A stretch of 59,862 nucleotides of DNA from positions 1 through 59,862 of IMG/VR virus record IMGVR_UViG_3300028862_000314. The stretch is one strand, 5' to 3'. Both the position numbers and the translations under genes were made by a program. Positions 2,972 through 52,457 of this stretch are shown here, one piece after another; the first letter of the stretch is position 1, and each line of letters begins with the position of its first letter. This DNA comes from a virus. Under the pieces are notes generated by a model. The model made no database searches. It had not been told where the DNA came from and saw only the letters and a program-made list of their open reading frames with translations.

Positions 2972-2972
2972 T

Positions 2973-12906: not shown

Positions 12907-12907
12907 T

Positions 12908-13264: not shown

Positions 13265-13268
13265 ACCC

Positions 13269-13637
13269 ATGAACCCAAAACTCCTATCAATCGTAATCCC
13301 ATTCTTAGTAGTTATCTTTTTCTGGATAACGTACAGACTAAAGAAAGTCCCTATTCTTAAATACATTTCTAAATGGCCTTGGGGTGTTAGGATTGTAAAG
13401 AATGAGTATTTGCGCACTCTGTTTAATCGGGAAAAGAACCGTGTTAAAAGCGTTAAACGTGCCGTTAAAATGGCGAAACTTCGTAATCAGGCTGAGAATC
13501 TTAAGATGTATGTTATTGAGGTTGTTAAAGGTCGGTATTGGATTGGAACCATGCGCGAATGGAACATAGAGCGTAAAAACTACCCGAAGATGAAGCATAT
13601 CTGGCCCCCACGCGACTCGGTATTCCAAACACGATAA
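13269..13637 (+). CDS. Membrane-anchored basic protein (122 aa)
   Basis: One N-terminal transmembrane helix (LLSIVIPFLVVIFFWITYRL) followed by a strongly basic cytoplasmic part (KNRVKSVKRAVKMAKLRNQ) and a C-terminal YWIGTMREWNIERKNYPKM segment. It follows the paralogous hypothetical gene by 4 nt. Unknown function. Confidence 0.6.
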   Translation: MNPKLLSIVIPFLVVIFFWITYRLKKVPILKYISKWPWGVRIVKNEYLRTLFNREKNRVKSVKRAVKMAKLRNQAENLKMYVIEVVKGRYWIGTMREWNIERKNYPKMKHIWPPRDSVFQTR

Positions 13638-13641
13638 CCCC

Positions 13642-13764
13642 ATGCCCTACACTCCCCACCCCAAATCGGTAATCTTTAAAAGGCGCACACAGTTAATGCG
13701 CCTATACTTGAAACTTGAACAAACTGAAAGTAACATTGATGAACTTTTAAAAATGCTTCTTTAA
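13642..13764 (+). CDS. Small basic protein (40 aa)
   Basis: Short frame MPYTPHPKSVIFKRRTQLMR... ending in an amphipathic helix. It starts 4 nt after the upstream stop and its TAA shares one base with the next ATG (TAATG at 13762-13766), indicating translational coupling. It fills the only gap in a contiguous operon, which supports it as real. Confidence 0.5.
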   Translation: MPYTPHPKSVIFKRRTQLMRLYLKLEQTESNIDELLKMLL

Positions 13765-14024
13765 TGGAAAAAGCCTTTACAATAGATTCTCTTTCTTTAC
13801 GGTCATTAAACGATTGGTTGAAAGTTATCTTTGAAGGTAACAAAGGACCTACACCCCGGCAGTTCTGGATATCAAAACCCTACCTTGTCAGCCTGTCAGA
13901 TGAGAACTTTCTAGGTTTAATCAACAGCGAAGTACAGTTAATAGGTGGTAGTGAAGCCTGTGATTATATAGATCAGCGAATGAAGATAATCGAAATGAAG
14001 GAAAAGATTAAGAAATGCAAATAA
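13764..14024 (+). CDS. Hypothetical protein (86 aa)
   Basis: Soluble helical protein (MEKAFTIDSLSLRSLNDWLK ... CDYIDQRMKIIEMKEKIKKCK). It overlaps the upstream small gene by one base and the downstream gene by 10 nt. No motif is recognised. Confidence 0.6.
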   Translation: MEKAFTIDSLSLRSLNDWLKVIFEGNKGPTPRQFWISKPYLVSLSDENFLGLINSEVQLIGGSEACDYIDQRMKIIEMKEKIKKCK

Positions 14025-14215
14025 GTAACAAATACGAGTTAGGTCAATTAGTATTCCTTCTTACCGATAACGAACAACTTGCTCGTATTGTTACCTGTAT
14101 TCAGATTAACGGAAATAATCAGCTATCATACCAGCTAAGTTGTGGAGTAGTTGCAAGCTGGCATTACGACTATGAAATTGTAAGTAATAAAGATTTAGTA
14201 AAAGCACTTCAATAA
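14015..14215 (+). CDS. Small SH3-like hypothetical protein (66 aa)
   Basis: Beta-rich 66-residue protein with the pattern YELGQLVFLLTDNEQLARIV...WHYDYEIVSNKDL, resembling small SH3/tudor-like proteins frequent in Bacteroidetes phages and plasmids. Coupled on both sides (10-nt overlap upstream, one-base overlap downstream at 14215). Function unknown. Confidence 0.6.
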   Translation: MQISNKYELGQLVFLLTDNEQLARIVTCIQINGNNQLSYQLSCGVVASWHYDYEIVSNKDLVKALQ

Positions 14216-14355
14216 TGAATACACTCTGGGCCATATCCTTACTTGCTTTCCTGGTCGAAATATTTCTACACCCTCGATTAGACTGTAAAGATGTTGACGG
14301 TTGGTATTTGTGGTATGGTAAGGATTATAATAGGCGGTATTTAAAAATAAAATAA
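14215..14355 (+). CDS. Small single-pass membrane protein (46 aa)
   Basis: Frame MNTLWAISLLAFLVEIFLHP..., with an N-terminal transmembrane helix and a Tyr/Trp/Lys-rich tail (GWYLWYGKDYNRRYLKIK). The ATG overlaps the upstream TAA by one base and the next gene begins 2 nt after the stop, so it fits exactly into the operon. Unknown role. Confidence 0.55.
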   Translation: MNTLWAISLLAFLVEIFLHPRLDCKDVDGWYLWYGKDYNRRYLKIK

Positions 14356-14356
14356 G

Positions 14357-15259
14357 ATGAAAAAGATAAATTTATTTTTTGACATGGAGTTTACTTCCTT
14401 GTCACCCGATGCTCAGATTGTTTCGATTGGGATTGTGAGTGAAGATTTTTTGCCAATCAATTTAAAATTAACGCATTATACGGACGAAAACGGTGTTGTT
14501 GGAGAAATTTCAAAAATAGAAGACTCTCCCATGTATGATGGTAAATACCACAAAATATTTAAAGATGAATTTTCAAAATCAAATAGCTTTTACGCTGAGT
14601 TCACCGACTTTGACATTAACCGTTGTGATGGTTGGGTTAAGGAGAATGTGGTGGGTAAATTGAAATACAAGGACTACGATAAATTCTTGCCTGAATACGG
14701 TGTTAATGTTATGTCGGGTAAAGGCAATACAAGTCTTATCAAATTATGGCTGTACAGGTATTTGGAACAATTCTACAACTACCAAATTCAATTCGTTTGT
14801 GATTGTGGTACATTTGATTGGTATCATTTATTACAGTTGTTGGCTGAATGGGATGAAGTGCCCATGCAATTAATGATTGATACTTCAATTATTCCTATTG
14901 ATGTTACCATTGAGGAGTTTATTGATGAGTGGAAGCGTAGTGGACCTATTGTGGTAAGTAAAATGCCTGATCCTAAGGTTTTTAATATTGGGGGGAGAAT
15001 AGGACTCCCAAAACTTCCCTCAAACATTTCACCCGTTCCGCAGGATTTGAATGACCTTATCGCTATTAAACGTGGAATTTCGGTATGGGAAGCGTTTGAT
15101 TTGAATCGGGAAACCCTTTCTGTTGGTAATGATTCAGTGTTAATGGTTAACAACAAAAATGCTGAAACGCTTGATAGTTTAAACCCAAATGCAGAATTAA
15201 AGCATAATTCACTTTGGGATGCTAAAGTAATCAAAGCTATTTACGAAAAACTACAATAA
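14357..15259 (+). CDS. DEDDh-family 3'-5' exonuclease
   Basis: A 300-residue protein with Exo I FFDMEFTSL (Asp and Glu two apart), an Exo II-type Asp in CDCGTFDWYHLL and Exo III HNSLWDAKVIKAIYEKL, where the His and Asp five apart define the DEDDh class. The middle (residues about 185-270) is a low-similarity insertion. It could degrade nucleic acid or proofread; substrate (RNA or DNA) cannot be told from sequence. Last gene of the plus operon, followed by a convergent terminator. Confidence 0.8.
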   Translation: MKKINLFFDMEFTSLSPDAQIVSIGIVSEDFLPINLKLTHYTDENGVVGEISKIEDSPMYDGKYHKIFKDEFSKSNSFYAEFTDFDINRCDGWVKENVVGKLKYKDYDKFLPEYGVNVMSGKGNTSLIKLWLYRYLEQFYNYQIQFVCDCGTFDWYHLLQLLAEWDEVPMQLMIDTSIIPIDVTIEEFIDEWKRSGPIVVSKMPDPKVFNIGGRIGLPKLPSNISPVPQDLNDLIAIKRGISVWEAFDLNRETLSVGNDSVLMVNNKNAETLDSLNPNAELKHNSLWDAKVIKAIYEKLQ

Positions 15260-15263
15260 ACAA

Positions 15264-15294
15264 AAAGACCGGTTAACTCCCGGCCTTTCTTTTA
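15264..15294. terminator. Bidirectional terminator
   Basis: Stem AAAGACCGG / CCGGCCTTT with a 7-nt loop and one A-C mismatch, flanked by A- and T-runs. It lies between convergent genes (exonuclease ending 15259, portal ending 15292) and can serve both strands. Confidence 0.75.
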
Positions 15295-17244
15295 CGCTGT
15301 AATTCCTTCCGGCTGCACCGGCTGTTGTCCTGCCATCTGTTGCTGCTGCGCCATCATCTGTTCGGCCTCTTTCCTCTTACTTTGAATATCCGCTAAAAGG
15401 TTATCCGCAAACGGAATACTACAATGAGCAAGTGCAATTTCAATATCAATTTTATTGGTATCAACCCATTTGAACAACTGATCGTCAATCATACTCCTGA
15501 ATACCGGTGAATCAGCACCCTGAACGATATTAATATCAATATCCTTCATTGCCTTAGCTTCTGATGCTTTGTACATCTGTGCATCTTTAGAATACGCTTT
15601 ACCGGCAATAGTTATAATCCTGTCCTCGTAATACTGACGGATAATACTTAATGCCTTTTTATCCCTGCGTTTCTTATAAGCCCCGAATGATTCAATAATA
15701 TCAATGTTGTTCATTGCTGAATTTTGGGCTTCCTGTGCGTATAGGCTTGAAGGTGTACCCGATTTGGCGGTAATACCTTGTATGGCGTTACCTACTCCTC
15801 CTGTGCGCATCATAAAGTCCATTTGCATCTGTATAGCCCCGTTGCTGTCAGGATCAATGGCACGTGCTGAAATCTGTTGAGGAATAGTAGCCCCTGGCTT
15901 GATCTTAATTTTGATAACTCCGTTGTACTTGGTCCATTCTTCCGCGAAGTCCTCAATGGTCATATCGTCAGGAATAGAATCTTCGGGAACCAAAAGAACC
16001 CCTTTAGCTGCTGCGCTCCTTTGGAACTCCTGTGCGATAATCAACCTGTTAATAAACCTCTGTTGGTCTATCAAATCCTCGGATAATCCCCAGACCTCTC
16101 CGTTAACCAAAGGATAAAGGCTAATAGCGTAAGGGTGTTCCTCGTGCTGATACGGGGTTTCTGCTTCATACAAACAGGCTCCTTGTGGAGTTAAGTACTT
16201 CACATACCAGTATTGTTCAAACTTCTCGGTAGCTACCATCAAAGGTACTTCTTCCTCCGGCACTCCGTTTTGAGCATAGTAGGCTATACGTTTACTGTTT
16301 ATCTCGTCAATCTGTGCTTTTGTAGCTTTAAGTACCTGGCGTGTTCCGTCATAGTAATCATGCACATAAAGCCTCCATTCTGCCCTAAACTCCCATATCT
16401 CGAATAACCGGCATAACGACATATCGTTAGGAATAAGGAAGTCACTAACTTGTGTGTCCTGATGTGTTAACGTCTGACCCGTTCCCGGGTAATCGGTTTT
16501 GTGATTTTTGAATAACTCACGTATTATCTTTTCATCTTCTTTATTGCTTCCGGCAAATGCAGCAACCATATATTCAATAGGTGCATCAATAATATCACCT
16601 ACAAAGTTTAACTCGTTAAGCCTTGTATCTTTTATCCCTGAGTTGAAGAATATCCTGTCATAAGGTATATTGTCAATAAATAATGACTCTCTGTTAAGGG
16701 TAGGCATGTATTTATATCCTACTTTCCCGATAACTCCACCATACAAAAGGAAGTTTTCAAGGTTACGTGCATCCAGGTCGTGAGCTTCGTTAACGTCAAG
16801 TTCAGCCTGCAGCATAGTTGTAAGCATTTCGCTTTTCGATGAGTTCTCCTTTGATCTGGCAATAGCCATACTCTTACTAGGATTACTTCTGTACTGCGAA
16901 ACAATACTGCGTATAACAGGCCTTATAAGGTTTTGTTTGAATGGTATCTTGCCCTGTGTCTTTATGTATTCTTCCTCCGTCATGGTGATACCCTTTCCGT
17001 CACGGTCCGAAACAATAACTTTTTCATGCCACTGTTTACCCCTGTAGTACATAAATGAACGGAAGCTTCTTTCTCTCCAATCTGTCAGGTCCTCCCAATA
17101 TTTACGTGCTATGTTAAGCACTCGCATATTATCCTCCCTGTTTTCATAGAAACGTTCAGTACTCGCACTTGCTTTGCCAGTGGTTTTCTTCTTACCAGGA
17201 AGTACTCTCCTGCGTATTTTTAGTTGTTCGGTGTCGAGTATCAT
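15292..17244 (-). CDS. Portal protein
   Basis: A 650-residue protein in the size range of P22/crAss-like portals. N-terminal wing (NMRVLNIARKYWEDLTDWRE, FMYYRGKQWHEK), conserved FKQNLIRPVIRSIVSQYRSN, and later GGVIGKVGYKYMPTL, WGLSEDLIDQQRFINRLI and MRTGGVGNAIQGITAKSG are typical portal segments. The C-terminus is Gln/Met-rich (EQMMAQQQQMAGQQP), a barrel or crown-type tail. It forms the dodecameric ring through which DNA is packaged and ejected. It is immediately downstream of the giant virion gene (1-nt gap). Confidence 0.85.
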   Translation of the reverse strand: MILDTEQLKIRRRVLPGKKKTTGKASASTERFYENREDNMRVLNIARKYWEDLTDWRERSFRSFMYYRGKQWHEKVIVSDRDGKGITMTEEEYIKTQGKIPFKQNLIRPVIRSIVSQYRSNPSKSMAIARSKENSSKSEMLTTMLQAELDVNEAHDLDARNLENFLLYGGVIGKVGYKYMPTLNRESLFIDNIPYDRIFFNSGIKDTRLNELNFVGDIIDAPIEYMVAAFAGSNKEDEKIIRELFKNHKTDYPGTGQTLTHQDTQVSDFLIPNDMSLCRLFEIWEFRAEWRLYVHDYYDGTRQVLKATKAQIDEINSKRIAYYAQNGVPEEEVPLMVATEKFEQYWYVKYLTPQGACLYEAETPYQHEEHPYAISLYPLVNGEVWGLSEDLIDQQRFINRLIIAQEFQRSAAAKGVLLVPEDSIPDDMTIEDFAEEWTKYNGVIKIKIKPGATIPQQISARAIDPDSNGAIQMQMDFMMRTGGVGNAIQGITAKSGTPSSLYAQEAQNSAMNNIDIIESFGAYKKRRDKKALSIIRQYYEDRIITIAGKAYSKDAQMYKASEAKAMKDIDINIVQGADSPVFRSMIDDQLFKWVDTNKIDIEIALAHCSIPFADNLLADIQSKRKEAEQMMAQQQQMAGQQPVQPEGITA

Positions 17245-17245
17245 G

Positions 17246-20200
17246 TTATTTCAGATTTATTTTGTACTTCTTTTCAAGGGTTCCAACCTGAGTTTTAAAT
17301 ATTTTTGCTGCATTCTCCGCATCTGTCTTGTATTTTAACATTGCTTCTGAACTTGTGGCGTTTTCTGCGTTATTTTCGATGTTTTTAATATTCTTATCAG
17401 CTAATTTGGTGATGTATGTAAGCTCGTTCATGAACTGGTATTTGTTCATCATCTGTAAAGCCTCTTTAGGATCATCCTTTTTCAAATTATTAATCTGATA
17501 TTTATATTCATCAACTGCTTTTAGTGCGTTGTAGTAGGTTGACATCGGGTTGCTGTCCTGTGAACGTCCTAAATAACGGTAGAATAACGGAACGTCCCAT
17601 TCATTCATTTTACCATCAGGGGTAACAGCGTTATAGGCTGTATTGAATACCTGTCTGAAGAACTTAACCCTTCCACCTCCAACAGTTTCAGATACATGCT
17701 GAATATCGGCAGGGTTCCAGTCAAATAACATAGTTTTTAACGTGTTATCCTCTTTTAATCCTGTTTCTGGATCTAGTCCCTGCCCGGCTTTAGTATACTC
17801 ATTACCACCACCAAACTCATTAAGCCATTGTGTAGCCTGTACTAAAGGCTCAAAGGTTGAATTTAATCCTTCCTGTGATCCCGGAATACGATCTTCTAAC
17901 TTTGTAGTAAATTGCTCTTTGTGTACCTTCTTCCCGGCAAAGTTTTGATTTACGGCTATATCATAGGCAGGAGTTAAAGCGGTAGGAACCAGGGTGCGTC
18001 CCAGATCATCACCACTTACATTAAATGGAGTTAATGCACCGGTTAAATTTTTCAAGTTACTAGCTGCAAACTCTCCGGCAGAAAGTTTACCCATTGCAGC
18101 CATTGTAGAAGTAACTCCTAATGCGTAAATAGCCCTAAAGAATTGTGGTAAAGGAATCTTAACATATTTGCCATCACCCCTATTTATGATAAGGTTATTA
18201 AGTTTATCGTAATCGGGAATGTTATCATACGTATTCTCTCCTCCCTCATCATCCGGCATAGTCATGTATGCTAATATAGCTTGAAGAACTCCCAATGCAA
18301 AGAATGAACCTAAAGCATATCCGAATTTAGCCTTGTTTTCTTTCCCCATTTTATAAATTCCGTATGTAGCCGATACGGTAGGCTTGAAGAACGCAAACAA
18401 CTGATTAAATACAGTGCTGGCCTGGCCTGTCCTGTCAAAGTCAACAGTAGCCTCTTTACTTGCTAAAGCTGCTTGTTCTGAACTCTGCCCTGCCATTTTA
18501 CGGCTTACGAATACGGCAAAACGGGAACTTTGTTCTGACATATCCATAACATAGGTCATTAACTCTGCCCCCTTGCGAAGTGGATAGTTATAAAATACCT
18601 TGTCTTTACCCGACAACTTACCGGTTCCTTTCCCGAAATCTGCTTCTTTTGCCCTTATCCTGTTAATTTCCTTCTCAATCTTCTCTGCTGACTTCTCAAA
18701 ACTTTCAAGCTGCATCCATCCGGTTGGTCCTCCCGAATCTTTCCACATCTTATAAAGGGTATCAAGTACTCTTTGCTCTCCGTACTGTTGTATTGCCGAT
18801 ACAATAGATTGTTTATTGTGTAGCCCTGCAGTTATTGTTTCTGCCTGTGATAACGGGTTTAGTTGTTTCCTAATATCCCGGTGAATAGTACCGAATGATT
18901 TACCCGTTACAATCTGCCTGATGAACTGTCCGGCCTCTCCTTCTTTCCTGATACCCTCCGTAATTGCTGCATACGGTAAGTCAATAAACATAAAGTTATT
19001 CAGGAAGAAGTTAGGGTTTTTACCGGTGAAATTAGCCTTCATAAACTGAGTAAGTTTACCCATCCATGAATTACCTAGCCACTTTGAAGTTTCTTTAAGT
19101 AACACATTCTCTCCCTTTATGCTTTGCGCTACATGAGGATCGCCTAAAACGAGTGTAAACCTATCCCCGTTATCGTAGCCCATAATCTCATGTTTCTCTG
19201 CTGTTGCCCTTGTCCTCTTTGCTTCGTGTGCGTTACCCTTGAAAGGTGCTTTAATATACATATACTGCCCCATTGCAGGATTATCTTTATTCATCCTGAA
19301 TAACTGAAGGGCTGTACGTGCTATCTTATTTTTAACACTTGTCATGATAGCTGAATGTGCCATCTGTCGAATGTAGGGTAATGGATCACCAGGCTCAGAA
19401 GTACGGCCTTTAGCTTTTATTGTGGCCTTAACATAAGTTTGTGAAGTAATACCCTGTCCTTCGTTGTTTACATAATCGTAAAAGTCCTCCGGGTTAGGGT
19501 TCATTTCGTCATATTCCCATCCGCGCAAAGGAATGTAATATTTCCGATCATTAAACTTGTCGTGATCTTCTTTTGTGATAACACTATGTAAATACAGATT
19601 ATCAATAGTAAAATCAGTTGAAGCCTTTACCTTGCTCCAAAGTGAATCAATAAGATTAGGGCTTATTTTCTGTTCAAATTCCTTAACAATCTGTTCAACC
19701 GTTTGCCTGTTCCATGAATCTTCCGGATCTTCACTTATTGCCCTTATACCCTCGTTGTCGTTTCTCTCAATAGCTGATTTAGCTTTAAGATAACGCTGAA
19801 TTTCTTTTGATGAAACGTGCTGTTGGTCGATAAGGTGAGCTATCTCCGTTTGCAGGTCCGTGAATACTCCTTCGTCAAATGTATCAACCAGGCCTTTTAT
19901 TAAGCCCTTCCTTCGCCTGAGCAAACTGTAAACGTCAAATAGTTTCAATCCCTTTATTCCGTCCTTTGCCATTTCCTGCTGCCAAAGGTCAACACTGTGT
20001 ACGTTTTCAGCAATCCAGTCTGCAAACCTATCTCCATAATCTTTCTTCCCGATGATGCGTTTCATTTGCATTCCTGCAAATTGTGGTCTTTCTGCATCTA
20101 CCGTAGGATTAACCGAAGGAGGGATATTGTTGTTGGAGGAATGTTTGAGTAAATTAACGCTTCCTTCCCCTAAGAGTTCTCCTGCGAATCTTGGTCTGTT

Positions 20201-23200
20201 TTGCGAACTGCTAAGTACAGTTCCCATGCTGTCATTTCCGGATTCTCCTTGTGAAGTCTGGCTTTCTCCGCTATCTGTTCCTGTGTTAGATAGGTTGCTA
20301 TGTGAATCCCCGATGGGCTTGTTATATAAAACCTTTCTGTTTGTTCCATAATATAGGGTGCTTATAAATCGTCTTTCAAAGTTATCAATTATTTCTTTAC
20401 CCTCGACAACATCCATAATCTGTTTGTATGTCAATGGTTCTTCGGTAGGGATAACACCGTTTACTATCATTCCCTGTATGGTATATGCTAATGCTTCGTC
20501 TGCCCTGTCGTATTCGGTGTAATCGTCATAACTTTTATTAAGCATACCGTCAATGCTCTCATATCCTTTAAGGTCATGGAAGTATTGTAGTATCTGGCTT
20601 CTTCGTGCTGATAGAAACGCTCTGTTATGTGCATGTACTGTTTCGTGTATGATGGTAGGACGTATAGATTCCATTGAAGGAACACGGCTGGCGATAACTA
20701 CAATATGTCTGTATGTGCCATCAAAGAAAGCATCTGCCGATTTATCAAGGAGTGCATCTTCAATCTCTTTCATGTGTCCTGAACTGGCTTTATTGTCAAA
20801 GTACCAGTTTCTTACGTCCTTTTCGCTTTGAACTACGAGTAAAGGTGTTTTGTTTTGGAGTTCTGAAAGTATTGATTTGGCCTCGGTATTGATTAAGGAA
20901 TGACGTTCTGGTAATGGGAGGTTGGTGAAATCGGTTTGCTCAATAGAAAAAGATGAATTTATCTGTCCCTGTAAATAAACCTTCTGCCTTTCGCTTACGT
21001 CTTGCGTTTCTGAAATCCTTTTCAGATGATCCCCCGCAAACTCACTGTTAGAGTGTTTCATTATCGAATTTTCATCCGGGAACGCAAAAGCCTTATCAAC
21101 AAACTTCTGCCTGCTTTCCAGGTCGGGAAACCTAAACCCTTTACTCCATTTATCCCAGAATCCCCCAAATGATTTAGCGTGATCTTTGATAATAGCGTAT
21201 TCATCCGAAGCTATACGGTCACCCAATTTCACCATATACAGGTCTGCGCCCGTCTGTGTGTGCTTAACTGTTTCAAGTGTATAAGGAGCATCTATTTTAA
21301 TTACGTTGTCATTGGAGGGAGTTATGCTAGGCTGCTGTGGCTGTGATTCCCCTACATTAAGCCTTTCGTTTACCGTTACATCTTCCAGCGCATCAAATAA
21401 ATCCTCAATCTTTTCGATATGGGAGTAATCAAGGTTTTCCGGATAGCTGTATTTGCTGTTTTGTTCGTTGAATCTCCTGCTAGCCTCGGCCTGTATTTCA
21501 TCCGTTGAAAGAATGGGTTTACCGGCTAAATAATTACGTCCGTTCTCTGCCCCTAATTCGTTTGCAAACTGCCTTTCCGACTTATGCTCATATTTATCAA
21601 TAACAACAATACGTGTCGAAACACTTGTTCCTGCTTGTTTGAATGTTACTGATGGTAGTTTAATGCTTGCTACTAAATGAGCATCCGGATTAATCTGTTT
21701 CCCGTTCTCGTCAGTACCATAAAGGAAAGTATCAAGCCTGTCCGACATTTTACCTTCGGGGATTAAAGCAACAATACGTCCACCGTTTTTAAGGTGCGTA
21801 AATGCTTTTGCCACATGGTCCATTGCGGTTTTACCACCACTACCAAAAGGGGGATTCATTGCAATACCGTGAAACTTATTAACGATATTCAGGTTTTCAA
21901 ATGTATCGTTAATGATTTTACGTGTTCCCCCACCGGAACGTGCATTCAGTTTTGAGAATAAAGCATGTGAAGGCTCAACGGCTGTTACTGTTGCGTATTC
22001 AGGAAACCACATAGCTATTGCCCCGTGTCCTGCGCTTGGTTCCAGTGCTGATTCTTCAAACTGCAATCCTAACCATTCCACCATCTTCTGACCTACTGGC
22101 TCCGGAGTAGCGTAATAGTCTGTCCCCTCCCTTTGATCTCTGAGCCCTGTGGTCTTTTGCAGGGTGTTATATACCAATACTGCCCTGCGGAACTCTGAAA
22201 GCTGCTGTTGTGCTTTTTTATCGTATTCCTTGCCTCCTTTTCCTTGTTCAAGGTTTGGATCATCGGTTTTAGAGTTCCACAATACACCTTCTGCGAATGA
22301 ACGGAGTAAATCACGTGCCTGATCGCCTACTGCTAAGTTTTCGGTAGTACTTAATTTCTTGTTTACGTTACGTCCGAAGTTTTCAATCTCCATATCAAGC
22401 CCTAACAAAGGGTTTTCAAATATGGCGTTTGATTCCTGACCTATACGGAATATCCTACCTTCAATCTGCAATGCTGTTGTAGATGAAATAGGCATTGACA
22501 AGCTCATAAGGACTCTCTGGTTCTTGCCGGATGTGTCGTGTAATGAAATACCTTCTTTCCCGGCTTCTTCCTGTACAACGATTATATCGACTCCGGAACC
22601 GTCTTTATTGAACTTGGCAATATTTGCAGGTTTGTTGGCTTTTGATACGTCACCGTTAATTAATGCTACCCTGTCAGTACCGAATGCTGCTTGTATTTGT
22701 TCAATGGCAGGATTATAATTAAGGGTTTGCTCGTATGCTAAAAGATCAGCGTACTTATCCTCAAAGTTATTAGCCTGTGATAGTGCTAAACGTGCTTTTT
22801 CTTTATTTTCTGCTGATGAATTGGTATCATTCAATACCTCATTAGCCATACTTACCGTCCTGTCAATAATAGTTTTGAATGGGGGTGATACATTGGCTTG
22901 TTTCCTTCTGTGGAATACAACGACTTTACGACCTAATGCAAGGTGTTTTTCAATACGTGGTATTACCATAGAAGCCTTTAAGGATTCAAAAAGCTGTGTT
23001 GTATAGTTATAATCATAAAATACGTCACGTGCTGCGCTCTGCAGTCCTTCAAACTCTTTGGTTTCGTAATTGAAAATATCATTCAGTCCGTTATTGAATA
23101 ACTCTGCGTTATCGAGTGCTACTAACGGGAACTCACGGGAGTAATCCATATCACTTTCAATAGCACGTCCCGACATTACACCCTGGCTCATTAGCTTCTG

Positions 23201-26200
23201 AGCAAATTCAACCTCCTGCATTGCTATTGCTTCGGGGTTTGAATGCTCTTTAGTTTCCAGTTGGTGATGTTTCCACTGATACGCACTACCGAAGTTTTCA
23301 AGGAAGAAACGACTTTCAGCATCTACCCTGCTTCCTCTTGCATTGGTTATTTCTTCGCCTGTATAGTCAAATAATACCCTGTTAGCATAGCGTAAATTGA
23401 AATGCCCTTTAAATGGTGTTGCTGAAAGGAATACTACTTTGGTATTTTCGTATGCTCTCTTTGCACGTTCAAGTAATGCAGGTTCGAGTTCTTTCTTTTT
23501 GGCTTCCAGATCATCAATAACCTTTGATAATACCTTTACTGCTGCTTCTGATGCTGCCGGATTAGCTGCATTGTCATTATTCAGGGATGCGTTAAGTTCC
23601 CTGTATTGGGTCATAGCTTCCCTGTGCTTAATCCAAACAGGGTGAACGTCAGTTATTCTCTGAAATGCTGTTGATACCGATACGTTGCTTAATCCGAAGT
23701 GTGCATAGGTAGTTGCTGATGCTGTACCTTTCTTTTCTTCCATTAACCGGTGTGATTCATCGTAAACGATTAAATCAAGGTCACGGTTTTTTAAAGCATC
23801 ATTTGAACGGAAATTTGCATAAGTACAAATGTTTATTCCTTTCCCGGCTGTCTTGGTATCTTCAAGGTTAGTAATATCAAGTCCTAAGTTAATGCCGTCT
23901 TTTATCCAGTCTTTAATCTTAGGTTCTGAGGGAACAACAATAAGTATCTGCCCCTTACCTTGCTTGGCAAAACGTTTAATAATTCCTAATCCCGTGAATG
24001 TTTTACCTGTGCCGGTCCCGTTGGTAAACAGAATACCCTTACCGTTGGCAAGGTCTTTTGTTTTGTGCGCTTCTGAGAAGAATCGGGTTTCTGCTTTCAG
24101 AACATCATCCTGTTGTTCGTCTAACAGATATGGGAGGGTTTGGCGAATGTTCGCCTCATCCATTAACTTAACTGGTATGGATTCGTTTTGCTGCTGTTGT
24201 ATCAGCCTTTTGGCTGTGCGCTGCTGAAACGTTTCTGGTAATCCTTCATTATTTGTGCCGTCTGGCTTACCTGTAACGATGTCATTGACATTATGTCCTT
24301 CTGGGCTATCAATGCTGCTTCCTCTGCCGTCAAAATCTCCGGCATCATTGTTCGTAACGATTGGTTTCGGGTCCGCTTGATATACTTCGTTATCGCCTTG
24401 TTCTCCAGGTAAATTGGCAAAAAGGCCACCACCGCCCTCGCTACGGTTTCGTCTGACTGCTTTTCCACTTCCTGCCGGAGTTTCATTTCGTACCGGTTCG
24501 CTGCTTCCTCGTCCACTGAGAACAGGAGTTCCATTTTCGGGTACTTCATTGGCACTGTTTCCGCTATCTGGTTGGCTACTTCCTGGTCTATCTGGTACAT
24601 CGTTGTTATTTTTGTCAAAGTTACGACCTAAATCGCTGTTTTTGTCCTCTTTAGGTGAATTTATTTTGTATGTGTACGCTCGTACTGCTGTGAAATCATC
24701 AAGTCTTGCATCTTCATTTTCAAGTAAGAAAGAAGCATATCCCTTTTTACAGGCTGAAAGCAATTCGGGAGAAATAGGAACGCCCTTAGATTCAATACCT
24801 GAAATAATATCAGCGAATTTATAAACGCCTTGTTTGGTGAAAGCATCTACAAGTTTAAATCCTGCTGCGTTTATCTTTGAAAGCTGCTCAGGGGTTTTAT
24901 CTGATGGCCCGTTGGAGTGTTTTAATATCGTGTTATCTTCTTCACCCAATAAACCTAGAAGATCGTTAAGAGCATTGTCAATATCATCATTCTGTTTGAT
25001 AACTTGTTTAATGGCATCTCCGGCAAACTTTGGCTTTTCAGCTTTTACTTTTGGTTCAGCAACTTTCTTTTGTTTGCTTCCTGCACTGCCCGTGTTAACC
25101 TTTGGAGCCTCGTTAACTGTTCCTCCGTCTGACAACTGAGCATTAAAAGTTCTGGCTTTGTTAAGGGTTGATTTTCGTTGACCGACTGCGTTGTTTTCGA
25201 TTTCATCTAATATTTCCTCCTTAGTTTGAACTTTATCGTTAAATAATCCTAACTGTCCGTTTTTATTTGCTGTTGCAATCTCGTTATACGAGTTGAAGAA
25301 TGATTTTGTATCTGTCTGATTGCCGGTTAATACGTCTGCAAGTAGTACCTCTGTTAAATTGTAAGGTGTAGTATCGAACATATCAGGCAAAGAAACCATA
25401 TCATAAACGCTTCCAAATTCACCTGAACGCATTTTGCCTAAAAGAACTACAGCCCCATTCATTTCGGGAAGTATTGAATATTCCCCTAGTGCCTGGTTCT
25501 CTAACAAAGGTAAGATACTTTTCGTTATTCTCAACCTGTATTGTTTCATTCCCTCTATATTCATCATACGAATAGAGGATTCGTCCATTACGCTACCGAT
25601 AAGGACTGTTTCAATCATATCCTTTCCTATGGCTGAAAAGGTTTTACCGTCAAGTATTTCGGCAATATCCATTGTGGTTATAATACCACTATCAACCATT
25701 AAGTCAATAAGTTCATTAGTTGCTGACGTACTGGCGTAGGCATCTGACATAGTATCAAACCTATCCAATACCCTTGCAATCTTCCGTACCTGTTCCGGCT
25801 TAATTGTTTTACTGATCTTGATAGCACGTTCTACCTTGTTTTGTGTCTTTTGGTCAGAAGCGTTGAACTTAGCAAATGTTTCAGTAGTATATTCCGGTGT
25901 TTCGTTCATTTGGAATATTACCCTGGGATTTTTAAAAGAAGATACTTGTTCGGGAGTGAACCCGTACATATCCGCATCCTGCATAAGCTGTTCTACATAA
26001 CTTGCATCTGTTCCATTTCCGGCTGCAAGTTCTCCACTCATGGTACGGTTATTACCTGATACTACAATTCCATCAGGAGAAACAATAACAGGATTATCAA
26101 GTGCTTTACCGTTGTATTGGTTAGCAATATCAATTACCTGTGCTTGCGCTGCCTTATCAGATCCATAATCACGATCATTAACTGTCTTTCCGTCTGGTGT

Positions 26201-29200
26201 TGTCGGGAATCCTTCGTTTTGTGAAAAGTTTAATGGGTTATGTGAAGGCGTAACCGTACCCGACTCTACAAGCATATATTTACCTGCAATTCGTTCATTG
26301 TTAGGTAGGGTAATTATCTTTTCCCGTCCCTCAATTTTAGGCGAATTGTTATATTTGCTTACAGCTACTTCTCCGGCTTTCCCCGGGAGTAGTTTATTAA
26401 TAACCGGCTTAATTACTCTAGGCGCAAGTGTAGGCACTTCCCCCTGTACCTTATCGGGTACAGATTGTACCCCTGTTGGCTCGTTTGTACCCGTTGGGGT
26501 ATTGCCTAATGATTCTTGTAGGTGCTGATCTCTTTCTTGGTCGCGTCTTTTCTTTTCTTCCCTATTTACCTTATCAATATCGTTTAATTCTTGTTCGGTA
26601 TAGTTTTTTGATGGATCATTGCTACCAACAATTACTTTTGCCGGATAAGTGACTATTCCCGTGTCGGTATCAATAGTTCCTCCATCTATTAGGCTAATAA
26701 TATAATCTCCGTCAGATGGATTCCTTGAAATGTTTAGCGATACGGCTACCTTATTAAAATCATATTTACTTCCTACCTCTAATTCGTAATACTCAACACC
26801 AATTTGTTTTAGCGATTCAACATATTCTTGCTTTTTATTGTTTATTCTATTTTCTATTTCGGGGGTTATAGTGCCTTTTTTGTTTAGATTCTCACGTATT
26901 GTTTCTAGGGACGATATAGCACTAAGCACTGATTCTGAATACTTTTTCTTAGCATCAAATACTGCATATTCATCACTATTAGGATCGTTTTTTATCTGAT
27001 CTAAATTGGGCTGATCTATAATATGCTTTGTAGTCCGTTCTATCCTTTCATCAACTTTCTTTTCAAACTCACTTGTTGCATTTTCTGCAACAGCTGGTTC
27101 AACCGTAGCCGTATTGTCTATGGTTGGCGCATTACCAGAAATGGCGATGCCTCCTTCGTTGCCCTTACTATCTTTACTTTCGTTATCATTCGGGGTCGAG
27201 TGGGAGGCATCGGACCGCACATCGCTAATATTACTATTAGCAGTAGAAGTCACTGGTACAAAGTTAGTAATTAATCCTTCGAGTTTTGCCTTTTGCTCGG
27301 TTAGTTTCTTTATTTCGTGTTCAATTTTTATAGCCTCGTCTAAATCGGAAATATTTTCCTGTTTCTTTTCTGCTTTAGCTATTTTATCGGTAACGGTTTT
27401 AATTATATTATTCAGATAGGTTGTAGCTTTTTCTTCACCAAAAGTATCTTTAAGATAGTTTAGCTTTTGGGTATCATCCATTTGCTTAGTATCTACATTA
27501 CCATCTTTATCGAGTGGGTAATTATTCAACTGTACGTTATTATCGGACGGTTGAACTGTCAACTGTTCTGGATTACTTGACGGTTGCTGTGCTTCAACTA
27601 TACTTTGCTGTTGTGCTAAAATTATATTTTGCTGCTCAATCTGCTGTGCTTGTTCGGCAAGTAGTTGTTCTGCTGGCTGTGCTTCCCAGGTAGTAGGATC
27701 GAAGTCTGTAAAGGGTACGGTAGATACCTTCCCGTTTTCATCTAAGATAATCGGAGGTTGTGAAGGATCTATATTGTCAAGGTCCGGTTTACCTTCTGCG
27801 TTAAGAGTTACACCTGATTTAATGAAATAAGGCTTACCATCAGCATGAAGGTTTGTTATTAAATGCGTTCCGTTATCGTTGAGGACTGGTGTAATCTTAT
27901 CGGAAAGGGCTTGTATGGGGTCCTGCTGTGGCGTAACGGGTGCTTGTGGTTCTGCTCCTGTTAACTGTCCTTGTATTGGCTGTTGTGGTGCTTGTGCTGC
28001 CTGTTCTGCCTGTGCAGTGATTGATTCGCCAGCCTCATAAGCTGATTTTAATATGCTTGCTTCTTTAGGATCGAGTGAAACAACCTTTTCAAAGTCACTT
28101 GCAGGTTCATTCCCAAAATCACCGTCAGATTTAACTACTGTATAATTATCCCCGTTACGTCCAATTACTTCAAAAACAGTTCCGTCCTTCTTGATACCAT
28201 AATTCAAAGTCTGGTTTGACTCTCTGGCCTTATCAATTCGATATGATGTTAATGCACGTCCGTAACCGGTAAGCAATCCCCCCATAACAAAACCACCTAG
28301 TGCAGCCTGCCATGTTTGAGTGCCTAATTCCTTCCAGCTTGCATCTTTATCATACAATCCGGCCTGTAATCCGTATTCAGATACCTGAGCGACAACTTCC
28401 TCAAATGCTTCTTCACCTGGTTGTAACAGGTATTTGTTATAAACAGTCTTTGCAATAGTGGGGTGTTGTGATAGAAACTTCTGGAATATCTCTTTGGCTC
28501 CCTTTTCCCCTGTTGTTTCAAGTATTTCTTTAGCAGCAAGTGTCTGCGCTGCCTTAGTCATATACTTACCCTTAACGAAACGTGAAACGGAACCTAATTG
28601 CTCTGTCCCTGTTTCAATAGCTGCAAACAATACGGCTAGCCCTAACTCTACTTCGGGATCGTAACCGGTTGAAGGTTTACCCTGCTTTATACTTTCATCA
28701 AGGTATTGATGGTATTGCTGTATTCCACTACCTGAACCCATTAAACCGAACACGGGCATAATTGCGCCTTGTGCGCCAGGAACTACCATTGCTGCTGCAA
28801 TAGGTAACATCTGTGGTAACATAGCAAAAGACTGCGCCACATTGGGGTTGGGTGCTTGCTGTATATCTTCTGCGCCTGATTTATTTAATGAGTTAGCCCA
28901 ATCACCTAGAATAGTTGTAGGTTTTGTAGCTAGTTCATTCCACATCTTTCGTTCTTCTTCCGGCTTGGTCTGATCTTCCGATAAAGAAGCAAATACTTCT
29001 CTCGTTGCTCGTTCTGCTGCCCCATAACCAGGTATTGCCGGATTTGATTCAGTCGCCATCCTTGCGACATAATCAGCACCCTGTAAAATAGCTGAACCCG
29101 TTTGTTTGAATCCTGCTTTTAATCCTTGTGTAACGTCACCGGGGGTTTGTCCTGCGTAGTTATCTTCCATGTTGTAACCAATACCTCCCGGCATAGTTAC

Positions 29201-29548
29201 TTCAAGGGGTTTAGGTTCTGCCTGTTTCTTTGCCTGTTCCTCGGTACTTATCTGCGCTCCTTGTTTTGCAAGGTCCATCAAACCACCATAAGTAGAACGG
29301 GCATTATTCCCTATGATATTTGCGTAATAAGGTGTATCAACATCATAAAACGGCTTAACGGTAGGGTTTTCACCTATGAATTTAGGTAACTGGCTGAAAG
29401 GAATAACGGCTGGATCTGCACCACCGATATTAAATAACCCTACTTCCTGTGCATCTGGATAGTCTTTAAGGAACTTATCAGCACTGCTTATTGGTATAGT
29501 AATATCCTGACCGTTGTAATTGAAATATCTGTTACCTTCTACTGGCAT
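17246..29548 (-). CDS. Giant polyvalent ejected virion protein (4,100 aa)
   Basis: Domains in order (residues approximate): beta N-terminus 1-75; hydrophobic segments 240-270 and 415-428; Gln/Pro linkers 510-680; DdrB/ParB-like (NPVIVSPDGIVVSGNNRTM, about 1150); SNF2-type helicase with Walker A TNGTGTGKT (1840), DESH (1928), SATPF (2045), QIEGRIFRIGQ (2365); N6-type methyltransferase with EPSAGHGAIAM (2505) and NPPF (2565); HExxH zincin HETVHAH (2970); LPD38-like C-terminal region from 3157 with a membrane stretch near 3750. Such polyvalent proteins are packaged in the virion and ejected to protect or modify incoming DNA. It lies between internal-protein and portal genes. No frameshift is seen over 12.3 kb. 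Confidence 0.88.
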   Translation of the reverse strand: MPVEGNRYFNYNGQDITIPISSADKFLKDYPDAQEVGLFNIGGADPAVIPFSQLPKFIGENPTVKPFYDVDTPYYANIIGNNARSTYGGLMDLAKQGAQISTEEQAKKQAEPKPLEVTMPGGIGYNMEDNYAGQTPGDVTQGLKAGFKQTGSAILQGADYVARMATESNPAIPGYGAAERATREVFASLSEDQTKPEEERKMWNELATKPTTILGDWANSLNKSGAEDIQQAPNPNVAQSFAMLPQMLPIAAAMVVPGAQGAIMPVFGLMGSGSGIQQYHQYLDESIKQGKPSTGYDPEVELGLAVLFAAIETGTEQLGSVSRFVKGKYMTKAAQTLAAKEILETTGEKGAKEIFQKFLSQHPTIAKTVYNKYLLQPGEEAFEEVVAQVSEYGLQAGLYDKDASWKELGTQTWQAALGGFVMGGLLTGYGRALTSYRIDKARESNQTLNYGIKKDGTVFEVIGRNGDNYTVVKSDGDFGNEPASDFEKVVSLDPKEASILKSAYEAGESITAQAEQAAQAPQQPIQGQLTGAEPQAPVTPQQDPIQALSDKITPVLNDNGTHLITNLHADGKPYFIKSGVTLNAEGKPDLDNIDPSQPPIILDENGKVSTVPFTDFDPTTWEAQPAEQLLAEQAQQIEQQNIILAQQQSIVEAQQPSSNPEQLTVQPSDNNVQLNNYPLDKDGNVDTKQMDDTQKLNYLKDTFGEEKATTYLNNIIKTVTDKIAKAEKKQENISDLDEAIKIEHEIKKLTEQKAKLEGLITNFVPVTSTANSNISDVRSDASHSTPNDNESKDSKGNEGGIAISGNAPTIDNTATVEPAVAENATSEFEKKVDERIERTTKHIIDQPNLDQIKNDPNSDEYAVFDAKKKYSESVLSAISSLETIRENLNKKGTITPEIENRINNKKQEYVESLKQIGVEYYELEVGSKYDFNKVAVSLNISRNPSDGDYIISLIDGGTIDTDTGIVTYPAKVIVGSNDPSKNYTEQELNDIDKVNREEKKRRDQERDQHLQESLGNTPTGTNEPTGVQSVPDKVQGEVPTLAPRVIKPVINKLLPGKAGEVAVSKYNNSPKIEGREKIITLPNNERIAGKYMLVESGTVTPSHNPLNFSQNEGFPTTPDGKTVNDRDYGSDKAAQAQVIDIANQYNGKALDNPVIVSPDGIVVSGNNRTMSGELAAGNGTDASYVEQLMQDADMYGFTPEQVSSFKNPRVIFQMNETPEYTTETFAKFNASDQKTQNKVERAIKISKTIKPEQVRKIARVLDRFDTMSDAYASTSATNELIDLMVDSGIITTMDIAEILDGKTFSAIGKDMIETVLIGSVMDESSIRMMNIEGMKQYRLRITKSILPLLENQALGEYSILPEMNGAVVLLGKMRSGEFGSVYDMVSLPDMFDTTPYNLTEVLLADVLTGNQTDTKSFFNSYNEIATANKNGQLGLFNDKVQTKEEILDEIENNAVGQRKSTLNKARTFNAQLSDGGTVNEAPKVNTGSAGSKQKKVAEPKVKAEKPKFAGDAIKQVIKQNDDIDNALNDLLGLLGEEDNTILKHSNGPSDKTPEQLSKINAAGFKLVDAFTKQGVYKFADIISGIESKGVPISPELLSACKKGYASFLLENEDARLDDFTAVRAYTYKINSPKEDKNSDLGRNFDKNNNDVPDRPGSSQPDSGNSANEVPENGTPVLSGRGSSEPVRNETPAGSGKAVRRNRSEGGGGLFANLPGEQGDNEVYQADPKPIVTNNDAGDFDGRGSSIDSPEGHNVNDIVTGKPDGTNNEGLPETFQQRTAKRLIQQQQNESIPVKLMDEANIRQTLPYLLDEQQDDVLKAETRFFSEAHKTKDLANGKGILFTNGTGTGKTFTGLGIIKRFAKQGKGQILIVVPSEPKIKDWIKDGINLGLDITNLEDTKTAGKGINICTYANFRSNDALKNRDLDLIVYDESHRLMEEKKGTASATTYAHFGLSNVSVSTAFQRITDVHPVWIKHREAMTQYRELNASLNNDNAANPAASEAAVKVLSKVIDDLEAKKKELEPALLERAKRAYENTKVVFLSATPFKGHFNLRYANRVLFDYTGEEITNARGSRVDAESRFFLENFGSAYQWKHHQLETKEHSNPEAIAMQEVEFAQKLMSQGVMSGRAIESDMDYSREFPLVALDNAELFNNGLNDIFNYETKEFEGLQSAARDVFYDYNYTTQLFESLKASMVIPRIEKHLALGRKVVVFHRRKQANVSPPFKTIIDRTVSMANEVLNDTNSSAENKEKARLALSQANNFEDKYADLLAYEQTLNYNPAIEQIQAAFGTDRVALINGDVSKANKPANIAKFNKDGSGVDIIVVQEEAGKEGISLHDTSGKNQRVLMSLSMPISSTTALQIEGRIFRIGQESNAIFENPLLGLDMEIENFGRNVNKKLSTTENLAVGDQARDLLRSFAEGVLWNSKTDDPNLEQGKGGKEYDKKAQQQLSEFRRAVLVYNTLQKTTGLRDQREGTDYYATPEPVGQKMVEWLGLQFEESALEPSAGHGAIAMWFPEYATVTAVEPSHALFSKLNARSGGGTRKIINDTFENLNIVNKFHGIAMNPPFGSGGKTAMDHVAKAFTHLKNGGRIVALIPEGKMSDRLDTFLYGTDENGKQINPDAHLVASIKLPSVTFKQAGTSVSTRIVVIDKYEHKSERQFANELGAENGRNYLAGKPILSTDEIQAEASRRFNEQNSKYSYPENLDYSHIEKIEDLFDALEDVTVNERLNVGESQPQQPSITPSNDNVIKIDAPYTLETVKHTQTGADLYMVKLGDRIASDEYAIIKDHAKSFGGFWDKWSKGFRFPDLESRQKFVDKAFAFPDENSIMKHSNSEFAGDHLKRISETQDVSERQKVYLQGQINSSFSIEQTDFTNLPLPERHSLINTEAKSILSELQNKTPLLVVQSEKDVRNWYFDNKASSGHMKEIEDALLDKSADAFFDGTYRHIVVIASRVPSMESIRPTIIHETVHAHNRAFLSARRSQILQYFHDLKGYESIDGMLNKSYDDYTEYDRADEALAYTIQGMIVNGVIPTEEPLTYKQIMDVVEGKEIIDNFERRFISTLYYGTNRKVLYNKPIGDSHSNLSNTGTDSGESQTSQGESGNDSMGTVLSSSQNRPRFAGELLGEGSVNLLKHSSNNNIPPSVNPTVDAERPQFAGMQMKRIIGKKDYGDRFADWIAENVHSVDLWQQEMAKDGIKGLKLFDVYSLLRRRKGLIKGLVDTFDEGVFTDLQTEIAHLIDQQHVSSKEIQRYLKAKSAIERNDNEGIRAISEDPEDSWNRQTVEQIVKEFEQKISPNLIDSLWSKVKASTDFTIDNLYLHSVITKEDHDKFNDRKYYIPLRGWEYDEMNPNPEDFYDYVNNEGQGITSQTYVKATIKAKGRTSEPGDPLPYIRQMAHSAIMTSVKNKIARTALQLFRMNKDNPAMGQYMYIKAPFKGNAHEAKRTRATAEKHEIMGYDNGDRFTLVLGDPHVAQSIKGENVLLKETSKWLGNSWMGKLTQFMKANFTGKNPNFFLNNFMFIDLPYAAITEGIRKEGEAGQFIRQIVTGKSFGTIHRDIRKQLNPLSQAETITAGLHNKQSIVSAIQQYGEQRVLDTLYKMWKDSGGPTGWMQLESFEKSAEKIEKEINRIRAKEADFGKGTGKLSGKDKVFYNYPLRKGAELMTYVMDMSEQSSRFAVFVSRKMAGQSSEQAALASKEATVDFDRTGQASTVFNQLFAFFKPTVSATYGIYKMGKENKAKFGYALGSFFALGVLQAILAYMTMPDDEGGENTYDNIPDYDKLNNLIINRGDGKYVKIPLPQFFRAIYALGVTSTMAAMGKLSAGEFAASNLKNLTGALTPFNVSGDDLGRTLVPTALTPAYDIAVNQNFAGKKVHKEQFTTKLEDRIPGSQEGLNSTFEPLVQATQWLNEFGGGNEYTKAGQGLDPETGLKEDNTLKTMLFDWNPADIQHVSETVGGGRVKFFRQVFNTAYNAVTPDGKMNEWDVPLFYRYLGRSQDSNPMSTYYNALKAVDEYKYQINNLKKDDPKEALQMMNKYQFMNELTYITKLADKNIKNIENNAENATSSEAMLKYKTDAENAAKIFKTQVGTLEKKYKINLK

Positions 29549-29553
29549 GTCGT

Positions 29554-30786
29554 TTATTTTTTAGGTGCAGTTGCTCCAAATCCCTTTTTTGCCCCCGGGT
29601 ATCTGCTTAAATCAATATCACCCGTTGATTGTTTCCCGGGCTGAGCTACTACCGGCTGTGCCATCGGTGCAGGTGTGTTGAAATCTCCAATTCCTAACGG
29701 ATCAACGGACTTTGCAGGCTGAACTCCTAGTAAATCCATTCCGTAGGTGCTTATAAGTGCGCTGGCTTCTCCTGTGGTGAAATCATTATTACCCATCCTG
29801 GTAATGAGTGGGTTTTTAACGTCTGTTGCGTTTCCGTATTTGTCCTTTGACGTTCTGTCTGCTACCTTACCCAATATTTCCCATGCTTTTACTCCGTCAA
29901 TGTAAATAATTGAACCGTCTGGCATTTGAACTGGTACTGTTGAACTCGGTGAGAACTTATCAGCAAGGTTAGAACCCTTGTCCCCTCCCTTTAATCCATC
30001 CCTGTACAGCTTATCATTAAGGTTTGCAGCATAATACTGATACCCTAATGTAGCTTTGCGCCCACTTATCTGTTCGGCTAGTTGCGCTTGGCTCATTGCA
30101 AGGGCTTCTTTGTGCTGATCTTTGTTAAGTTGTAGCGTAGCATCAAAATGATCGTTATCCTGTTTCATCTTCTTGTCCTCACGTGCTGCCATGTATTCAT
30201 TCTGTGCTTTCTGTGCCAATGCCCTCTCCTTCTGCAGTTCTTCCATTTCCAACTGACGTGATGTTTGCTGGAATACGTCTTTACCTATTGCAGCTTTCGA
30301 CATTGCGTTACGATACTTGGCTTCGTTGTCAGCATTTATTCTGTCGTTATACTCTTTGAGTGCTAAGGGTGTAAAGGTGTTCTCCTGTGCCAATATAGGA
30401 CCTCCCTTACTTCCGATATAACCACCGTATGCCGTACTTAATCCTTGTCCTAGCGCATTCAGTCCGGCTGCAAACTTCAATCTTTGTTGGCGTTTCTCAT
30501 CAACTGGTGGTGTTCCGCTATCAATCAATGCAGAAAGAGGGTTAAAGCCTAACCTCATGTTTTCTTCCATCCTGGCTTTAAACTTTTCTTCCCGGGTAGG
30601 TTCTGGTTGAACAACTGCCATCGGTGCTATGGGAGCATTAGCATTTAACTGTGGTGCTTCTCCAAAAGCGTTACTTACCTGCGCATCAATATTCGGTGTG
30701 TCCGTATATTCAGAAAATGGAGCAGGGGGAACTACTAACGGCTTCCTCCATTGTGCGTTCTCCTCAAACATATTCATTACATTCAT
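29554..30786 (-). CDS. Internal virion/cargo protein with coiled coil (410 aa)
   Basis: Pro/Ala-rich N-terminus, a glycine-rich patch (GLNALGQGLSTAYGGYIGSK), a long charged coiled coil at about residues 155-245 (MEELQKERALAQKAQNEYMA), and a Pro-rich C-terminal tail. It sits between the gp14-like gene and the giant protein, as T7 gp15 sits between gp14 and gp16. Probably ejected with the DNA to build a trans-envelope conduit. Confidence 0.65.
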   Translation of the reverse strand: MNVMNMFEENAQWRKPLVVPPAPFSEYTDTPNIDAQVSNAFGEAPQLNANAPIAPMAVVQPEPTREEKFKARMEENMRLGFNPLSALIDSGTPPVDEKRQQRLKFAAGLNALGQGLSTAYGGYIGSKGGPILAQENTFTPLALKEYNDRINADNEAKYRNAMSKAAIGKDVFQQTSRQLEMEELQKERALAQKAQNEYMAAREDKKMKQDNDHFDATLQLNKDQHKEALAMSQAQLAEQISGRKATLGYQYYAANLNDKLYRDGLKGGDKGSNLADKFSPSSTVPVQMPDGSIIYIDGVKAWEILGKVADRTSKDKYGNATDVKNPLITRMGNNDFTTGEASALISTYGMDLLGVQPAKSVDPLGIGDFNTPAPMAQPVVAQPGKQSTGDIDLSRYPGAKKGFGATAPKK

Positions 30787-30797
30787 GCCGGTATGTA

Positions 30798-31313
30798 TTA
30801 ACGTGGTTTCTGGCTCGAAGCCTGCATTTCCTTTTGAATGTCTGCTTCTGTTTTGCCTGTGGTGTTCTCAGCTACCTGGAAAGTGTCAGCATAAGGATTA
30901 TATGTTGCATCTGCTTTCCCGTCTGCTTCTGCCCTGGTATAGCTTGGTATGTAGTAATTCCTTGTGTAACTGCCAATCCTTCCGTCAACAGGGCTTAATT
31001 CAGGTTTAGGGTAGTTCTTCTTTAATCCTGATGAATACATTGGATTCGGGGAGTTGTAAGTTGCGTTGAAATAGTCCTGCATCTTCTTAGTCTGCGAATC
31101 GTAATCGTAATTCTTCCCCTGTATCATGTGGTATTGCTCAAACTGATCTTTAGCATACTTCCCGTCACCTGCATCTAACTGTTCATCGGTAACTCCCTCG
31201 CTTCGTACTTTCTGATTAAAGTATTTCAGGTATGCGTTCCAATCGTCAACCTCTTGTTTTGTAGGGGCTGTGCGTTGTTCTGTCGGAGGAGTTGATACAG
31301 GTACTTCTTTCAT
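30798..31313 (-). CDS. Putative internal virion protein (171 aa)
   Basis: A 171-residue hydrophilic protein (MKEVPVSTPPTEQRTAPTKQ) with Tyr/Asn-rich segments (YDSQTKKMQDYFNATYNSPN) and a Gln-rich C-terminus. It overlaps the upstream gene stop by one base (TAATG at 31311-31315). The operon position suggests a minor ejected or internal protein. No motif is recognised. Confidence 0.55.
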   Translation of the reverse strand: MKEVPVSTPPTEQRTAPTKQEVDDWNAYLKYFNQKVRSEGVTDEQLDAGDGKYAKDQFEQYHMIQGKNYDYDSQTKKMQDYFNATYNSPNPMYSSGLKKNYPKPELSPVDGRIGSYTRNYYIPSYTRAEADGKADATYNPYADTFQVAENTTGKTEADIQKEMQASSQKPR

Positions 31314-52316: not shown

Positions 52317-52457
52317 CTAACCCACCCGAAAGGGGCCATAAAAACGTTCTTTAACCCGAATGGTATTGCGGACACGAATAGGTCAACTTTATTCGTATTG
52401 TCAATTTAACGCAAGGTTGATATAGGTTCCTGTAATGTGCGCCCCGTATGAACGAAG

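Follow-up and report, generated by a model that had tools for sequence, protein, structure and literature searches.

The stretch of DNA analysed here (the window) is the whole of the 59,862-nucleotide viral record IMGVR_UViG_3300028862_000314 of IMG/VR. An open reading frame runs along its minus strand from position 29548 to position 17246, with an ATG start and without internal stop, and encodes 4,100 amino acids. In two further metagenome contigs, residues 1445-4100 and 2973-4100 are encoded in one frame and with 100% identity, which rules out that the frame is an artefact of assembly; in a scan of viral contigs with the whole protein, near-identical contigs were the sole matches. The product, referred to below as the giant, is thus a real and well-formed protein. 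Its gene and the other features of the locus are listed in Table 1.

Table 1. Features of the giant gene, of its operon and of the rest of the window.
Feature	Position	Strand	Basis
Giant polyvalent protein gene	17246..29548	minus	uninterrupted ORF; two further contigs confirm frame
N-terminal hydrophobic region, residues 249-465	28154..28804	minus	motif ...GEEAFEEVVAQ...AALGGFVMGG
DdrB-like ParB, residues 1083-1240	25829..26302	minus	Pfam PF18763; family HMM
SNF2-family dsDNA translocase, residues 1794-2423	22280..24169	minus	motifs and PDB fold matches
Gamma-class (N6-adenine-type) DNA methyltransferase, residues 2450-2655	21584..22201	minus	motifs and PDB fold match
Zincin-like metallopeptidase region, residues ~2945-3070	20339..20716	minus	HETVH 2968-2972
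C-terminal helical block, residues 3182-4044, including LPD38 3771-3974	17417..20005	minus	Pfam PF18857; AlphaFold2
P22-like portal, 650 aa	15292..17244	minus	Pfam P22_portal E 8e-26; PHROG portal E 7e-43
410-aa gene adjoining the giant on its upstream side, candidate second ejection protein (position of gp15/gp51)	29554..30786	minus
171-aa gene, same operon	30798..31313	minus	position; weak match to a PHROG of unknown function
gp14-like internal virion protein, 201 aa	31313..31918	minus	PHROG internal virion protein E 2e-7
Large terminase subunit with intein	9868-12906	plus	Pfam Intein_splicing 403-734, E 5e-19
Fib_succ_major protein	856-1554	minus	E 2e-22
C-type-lectin-looking protein	59027-59827	minus
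tRNA-Met gene	52243-52317
Bacteroidota-type integrase	52563-53786		Phage_int_SAM_5
Second integrase, XerD-like	35478-36149
Small DNA methyltransferase	38331-38939	minus	N6_N4_Mtase, E 5e-9
DNA methyltransferase similar-looking to that at 38331-38939	40234-41028

The structural operon and the phage

The giant gene belongs to one run of minus-strand genes, in the order gp14-like, 171-aa, 410-aa, giant and portal, in which neighbouring genes are separated by 11, 5 and 1 nt (the last between the giant and the portal) and in one case overlap. This has the appearance of a late-type structural operon, and its arrangement is repeated in related loci, where a homologue of the gp14-like gene lies ~1.05-2.1 kb upstream of the giant. 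The initial annotation had placed the giant between an internal-protein gene and a portal gene, and the PHROG match of the upstream product (E 2e-7) and the Pfam match of the downstream one (E 8e-26) bear this out, with the Pfam T7_gp14 match of the former being below cut-off. Comparison of the gp14-like protein with N4 gp52 gave 22%. The 410-aa protein is weakly homologous (E 2e-4) to the product of the gene that immediately precedes the giant in Bacteroides phage BKO1-TP3; as a homologue of N4 gp51 it gave no match.

The only relatives of the portal among phage records are in three Bacteroides phages, the capsid protein is phage SU10-like and the integrase is of Bacteroidota type, so that the phage is most likely temperate, short-tailed and Bacteroidota-infecting. 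An intein carrying a LAGLIDADG homing endonuclease interrupts its large terminase subunit, and the tRNA-Met gene, which lies beside the Bacteroidota-type integrase, could mark an attachment site. The Fib_succ_major protein and the C-type-lectin-looking protein at the contig end belong to types that are often targets of diversity-generating retroelements; the related Bacteroides phage BKO1-TP3 has a reverse transcriptase gene in the corresponding region of its genome.

Domain content and recurrence of the architecture

From the N- to the C-terminus the giant consists of a hydrophobic N-terminal region, a DdrB-type ParB domain, an SNF2 translocase, a gamma-class methyltransferase, an HExxH zincin region and an LPD38 block. 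The five domains named in the initial annotation, which gave no strand, are all present in the uninterrupted minus-strand frame according to Pfam, motifs and fold matches; its list was correct as far as it went, but it had missed that the N-terminal region is conserved and that there is a relation to the N4 virion RNA polymerase (vRNAP). With several unrelated enzymatic domains (ParB, SNF2, methyltransferase, zincin motif, LPD38) in a single chain, the giant is a large polyvalent protein of the class of Iyer et al. (2017; PMC5512222) and not a novel kind. The combination is not an uncommon one, and its novelty had been overstated: polyvalent proteins were described in that study and the module order recurs in many phages.

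The ddrB-ParB match of Pfam (residues 1083-1208) narrowly cleared its cut-off of 27.6 bits, at 27.7 bits, and a family HMM that includes the giant itself matched the domain with E 6e-35. ParB was located N-terminal of the helicase in all 28 ORFs, of any completeness, in which both were present. In the segment that follows, Pfam detected ResIII/DEAD at residues 1825-1943, Helicase_C-type matches up to residue 2410 and a weak MTS match. The helicase motifs are intact (GTGTGKT, the Walker A motif, at 1844; DESH at 1930; LSATP at 2041; QIEGRIFRIG, motif VI, at 2361), as are those of the methyltransferase (ATPEP, EPSAGHG at 2503 and NPPF at 2565). The Walker A motif reads GTGTGKT in 42 of 46 giants compared, and 44 of them retain NPP[FY]. 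Residues 1735-2880 were modelled with AlphaFold2 (pLDDT 84), and the model matched in the PDB the SNF2 translocases RapA, Rad54 and Chd1, with E down to 7e-11, and the type I modification subunit 3ufb, with an HsdM-like fold (E 8e-8). Matches of this cassette in PADLOC (e.g. mad2, E 6.5e-14) were partial and corresponded to general methyltransferase and helicase domains, and the score against NCBIfam dnd_restrict_1 was far under the cut-off.

Blocks ~35-40% identical to the cassette were found in Klebsiella phage ZX1, Serratia phage Parlo, Pseudomonas phage Skulduggery, Vibrio phage 1.232.O and Ruegeria phage 45A6, all with the helicase before the methyltransferase, as in the window. The opposite order is that of DarB (methyltransferase at 90-275, helicase from 832), JC1 and BS-TP4, and according to Iyer et al. 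(PMC5512222), who take DarB as the archetype, the methyltransferase almost always lies on the N-terminal side of the helicase. The giant lacks this order feature of DarB and its helicase is only faintly similar to that of DarB (E 1e-3), which makes any transfer of function from DarB indirect, although the giant may still work in a DarB-like way. Stand-alone helicase-methyltransferase proteins of ~840-870 aa occur in Flavobacteria (Aquimarina, Allomuricauda, Chryseobacterium) and in viral contigs (loci L100, L105, L110, L143, L062, L063 and L082), so that the block can function on its own.

The HETVH sequence at residue 2968 is followed by a Glu in an ADEALAY-type context, in line with the aligned consensus HExxH...EExxA. 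Over 76 ORFs, HExxH occurred 50 times in the 61,291 residues between the methyltransferase and LPD38 and 5 times in 250,848 residues elsewhere, and this ~41-fold positional enrichment rules out a chance motif. In the giant, as in N4 vRNAP, it precedes a large helical C-terminal domain. LPD38 itself scored 86 bits, with the cut-off at 27. AlphaFold2 modelled residues 2890-4070 with pLDDT 75 and pTM 0.71, the helical block being mostly above 80, and the C-terminal model gave 69 matches at E <= 0.001 to viral structures, many of them named polyvalent. The PDB search with this model returned no fold match, N4 vRNAP included (best E 0.33, meaningless), from a library that may not hold N4 entries.

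Relatives of the helicase-methyltransferase block numbered 248 in the viral contig scan and 69 loci in the bacterial genome scan, the nearest ones with 52-66% identity. Architectures were counted over the 96 closed ORFs of >2,000 aa that carry the block, the window included. LPD38 was present in 61 of them, invariably at the C-terminus, and ParB in 22; ParB, the cassette and LPD38 coincided in 14, nine of which also had HExxH, and the order ParB, helicase-methyltransferase, HExxH, LPD38 recurs across giants. Outside the shared blocks BLAST shows the giant to be a mosaic: apart from residues ~190-480, ParB and the stretch just before the cassette, no relatives of the N-terminal part were found by this method, even in phages that are ~60% identical in the cassette. 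In three loci (L066, L071 and L146) the giant is split at module borders into two adjacent ORFs, of 1,428 and 3,156 aa in L071.

Relation to the N4 virion RNA polymerase

An HMM of the N-terminal region (residues 249-465 of the window protein) was grown on giants only, by iteration from a permissive start. It matched 71 giants, always within the first 1,000 residues, and the vRNAPs of four out of four schitoviruses at ~240-490 (N4, E 3e-15). There were no matches in reversed sequences nor, with default settings, in shuffled or locally shuffled ones, and the HMM matched neither T7 gp14-16, which leaves gp16 aside as a sequence relative, nor P1 DarA, DarB or DdrB. The reciprocal HMM, built from the four vRNAPs, matched 15 giants, all N-terminally, and no reversed sequence, and hhalign of the giant N-terminal family against vRNAP gave 96.5%, with shuffles at <=0.3%. 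The homology holds at the level of the family, for which a shared N-terminal ancestry with N4 vRNAP is likely. The ten closest sequences (the Bacteroidota group) taken alone gave 0.7% against the vRNAP N-terminal domain; the tie of the window clade is transitive, via intermediates, and could reflect profile drift.

At the other end of the protein, the LPD38 block (mixed set) reached 47-60% in hhalign against the final 150 residues of vRNAP, with controls at <=0.2%. By groups the value was 54% for non-Bacteroidota sequences and 13.6% for Bacteroidota alone, controls staying at <=0.3% overall, and Pfam detected no LPD38 in N4 vRNAP at E up to 10. The C-terminal similarity is weak, and these alignments are suggestive of a link.

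In N4 vRNAP, an N-terminal domain that is probably membrane-spanning precedes the polymerase, which is followed by C1, an HExxH domain, and C2, a large helical domain for which no structural relatives are known; the protein takes the place of gp16 as third ejection protein, and its transcription after ejection has been proposed to draw the N4 genome in (PMC12633501). With N4 vRNAP (gp50) the giant family has in common the N-terminal hydrophobic region, and the giant itself a central enzyme, the HExxH domain, a large helical C-terminus and, presumably, the third-ejection-protein slot. The place of the RNA polymerase is taken in the giant by ParB-SNF2-methyltransferase, and no single-subunit RNA polymerase domain was found in it with Pfam or PHROGs. 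The N-terminal lytic transglycosylase (SLT) of T7 gp16, JC1 and ZX1 is present in 11 of the giants and was not found in that of the window in domain and HMM searches.

Possible role on DNA entry and comparison with known systems

With a probability that we put at about 0.62, the giant would be packaged in the virion and ejected as a polyvalent protein in the third-ejection-protein slot (that of T7 gp16 and N4 vRNAP), and would protect the incoming DNA by methylation. The presumably membrane-active N-terminal region, the zincin and the helical LPD38 block would form a delivery chassis, and its payload would be the DdrB-type ParB and the SNF2 translocase joined to the N6-adenine-type methyltransferase. 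The phage head would contain a small number of copies, which would exit through the portal together with the gp14-like and 410-aa proteins. The N-terminal region would remain at the inner membrane, and the translocase would run along the entering DNA while the methyltransferase modifies it, a methylation that would shield the DNA from host restriction ahead of any phage gene expression. The zincin may then cleave the chain, releasing domains.

The large JC1 protein gp69 has been detected in CsCl-purified virions by mass spectrometry, with 51 unique peptides (PMC9144972). Since gp69 is a distant relative encoded at a comparable position, we infer on good grounds that the giant is located in the virion, and the homology between the N-terminal region of the giant family and that of N4 vRNAP, which is itself packaged and ejected, points the same way. 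P1 DarB is likewise packaged, with an N-terminal signal (PMC9024508), and protects against type I restriction (PMC5512222); an anti-restriction role of the giant, the customary extrapolation from DarB, is plausible. The term takeover machine used in the initial annotation goes beyond the evidence, as the giant is without an evident host-target domain (no ART, kinase or RNase), save for the possible protease.

A bolder version, in which LPD38 giants and N4-type vRNAPs share one homologous ejected chassis with interchangeable payload, and the SNF2-methyltransferase pair here both pulls in and methylates the genome, is rather unlikely. It is unlikely, too, that the zincin cuts a 4,100-aa precursor during assembly, with only fragments being packaged: P1 DdrB is processed to ~76 kDa before packaging (PMC5512222) and the position of HExxH is conserved, which would suit such a cleavage, while N4 vRNAP, in which HExxH is arranged in the same way, enters the virion uncut (PMC5512222) and the giant contains no known cleavage site. 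The SNF2 motor, anchored at the inner membrane, might instead serve mainly to pull the genome in, with methylation as a by-product or second task. The payload occupies the polymerase slot of N4 vRNAP, SNF2 enzymes, to which the model is matched in fold, translocate on dsDNA, and transcription pulls DNA in both N4 and T7, in N4 by vRNAP according to the proposal mentioned (PMC12633501). Still, several LPD38 giants (VibK249, MetMV) were found without the helicase-methyltransferase cassette, which is thus not generally required for DNA entry, and this reading seems quite improbable. SNF2 motors are, besides, rarely strong continuous pullers. That the giant is made late and acts in the producing cell, for instance in methylation of progeny DNA or as a packaging aid, would agree with the late-type operon next to the portal and with the further DNA methyltransferases of the phage, but is very unlikely given that JC1 gp69, P1 DarB and N4 vRNAP are all virion components and that the N-terminal region is common to the giant family and an ejected protein.

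If the proposed explanation is correct, N4 vRNAP, the best-studied of the ejected phage enzymes, would have its delivery chassis in common with a large group of phage giants, most of them unannotated. It could then be predicted from the chassis which of these giants are injected, and from the payload what each one does on entry. DNA entry in short-tailed Bacteroidota phages, and the protection of incoming DNA against restriction, would become directly testable in isolated relatives.

Several known systems resemble the giant in part. P1, a myovirus, carries in its virion DarB, with a methyltransferase and an SF2 helicase, and DdrB, with ParB and a predicted metallopeptidase; unlike in the giant, these are two separate proteins, without the LPD38 block and with the methyltransferase first. 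In Bacteroides phages BS-TP4 and BKO1-TP3 a giant of 5,391 or 5,553 aa with ParB, methyltransferase and LPD38 lies directly before a homologous portal gene and is preceded by a small homologous gene, that of BS-TP4 differing in having the methyltransferase before a Strawberry-notch-type helicase and an extra inorganic pyrophosphatase domain. Among isolates, the closest protein to combine the cassette (36% identity) with LPD38, likewise in this order, is the 3,912-aa protein of Ruegeria phage 45A6 (ANH49087), in which no ParB was found and which, unlike the giant, has a GNAT domain after the methyltransferase and a largely unrelated N-terminal third. An archaeal virus, Methanosarcina virus MetMV (L011), encodes a 3,002-aa LPD38-type giant (10615-19623), in which the cassette was not found. 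Burkholderia phage JC1 gp69 (4,515 aa), of the Bcep22 DarB-like giants, shares methyltransferase, SNF2 and LPD38 with the giant and is encoded directly after two virion-protein genes, but has an N-terminal transglycosylase, LPD3 and the methyltransferase before the helicase (PMC9144972); ParB was not found in it by HMM. The polyvalent proteins of Iyer et al. (PMC5512222) also join DdrB-ParB, SNF2 ATPase, adenine methyltransferase, zincin and LPD38 in a late-gene context beside the portal, with the methyltransferase nearly always N-terminal where the giant has the translocase first, and the accessible text of that study does not describe an N-terminal region shared with N4 vRNAP. With respect to published descriptions, the new elements are the reversed order of the helicase-methyltransferase dyad and the family-level homology that links the N-terminal region with N4 vRNAP.
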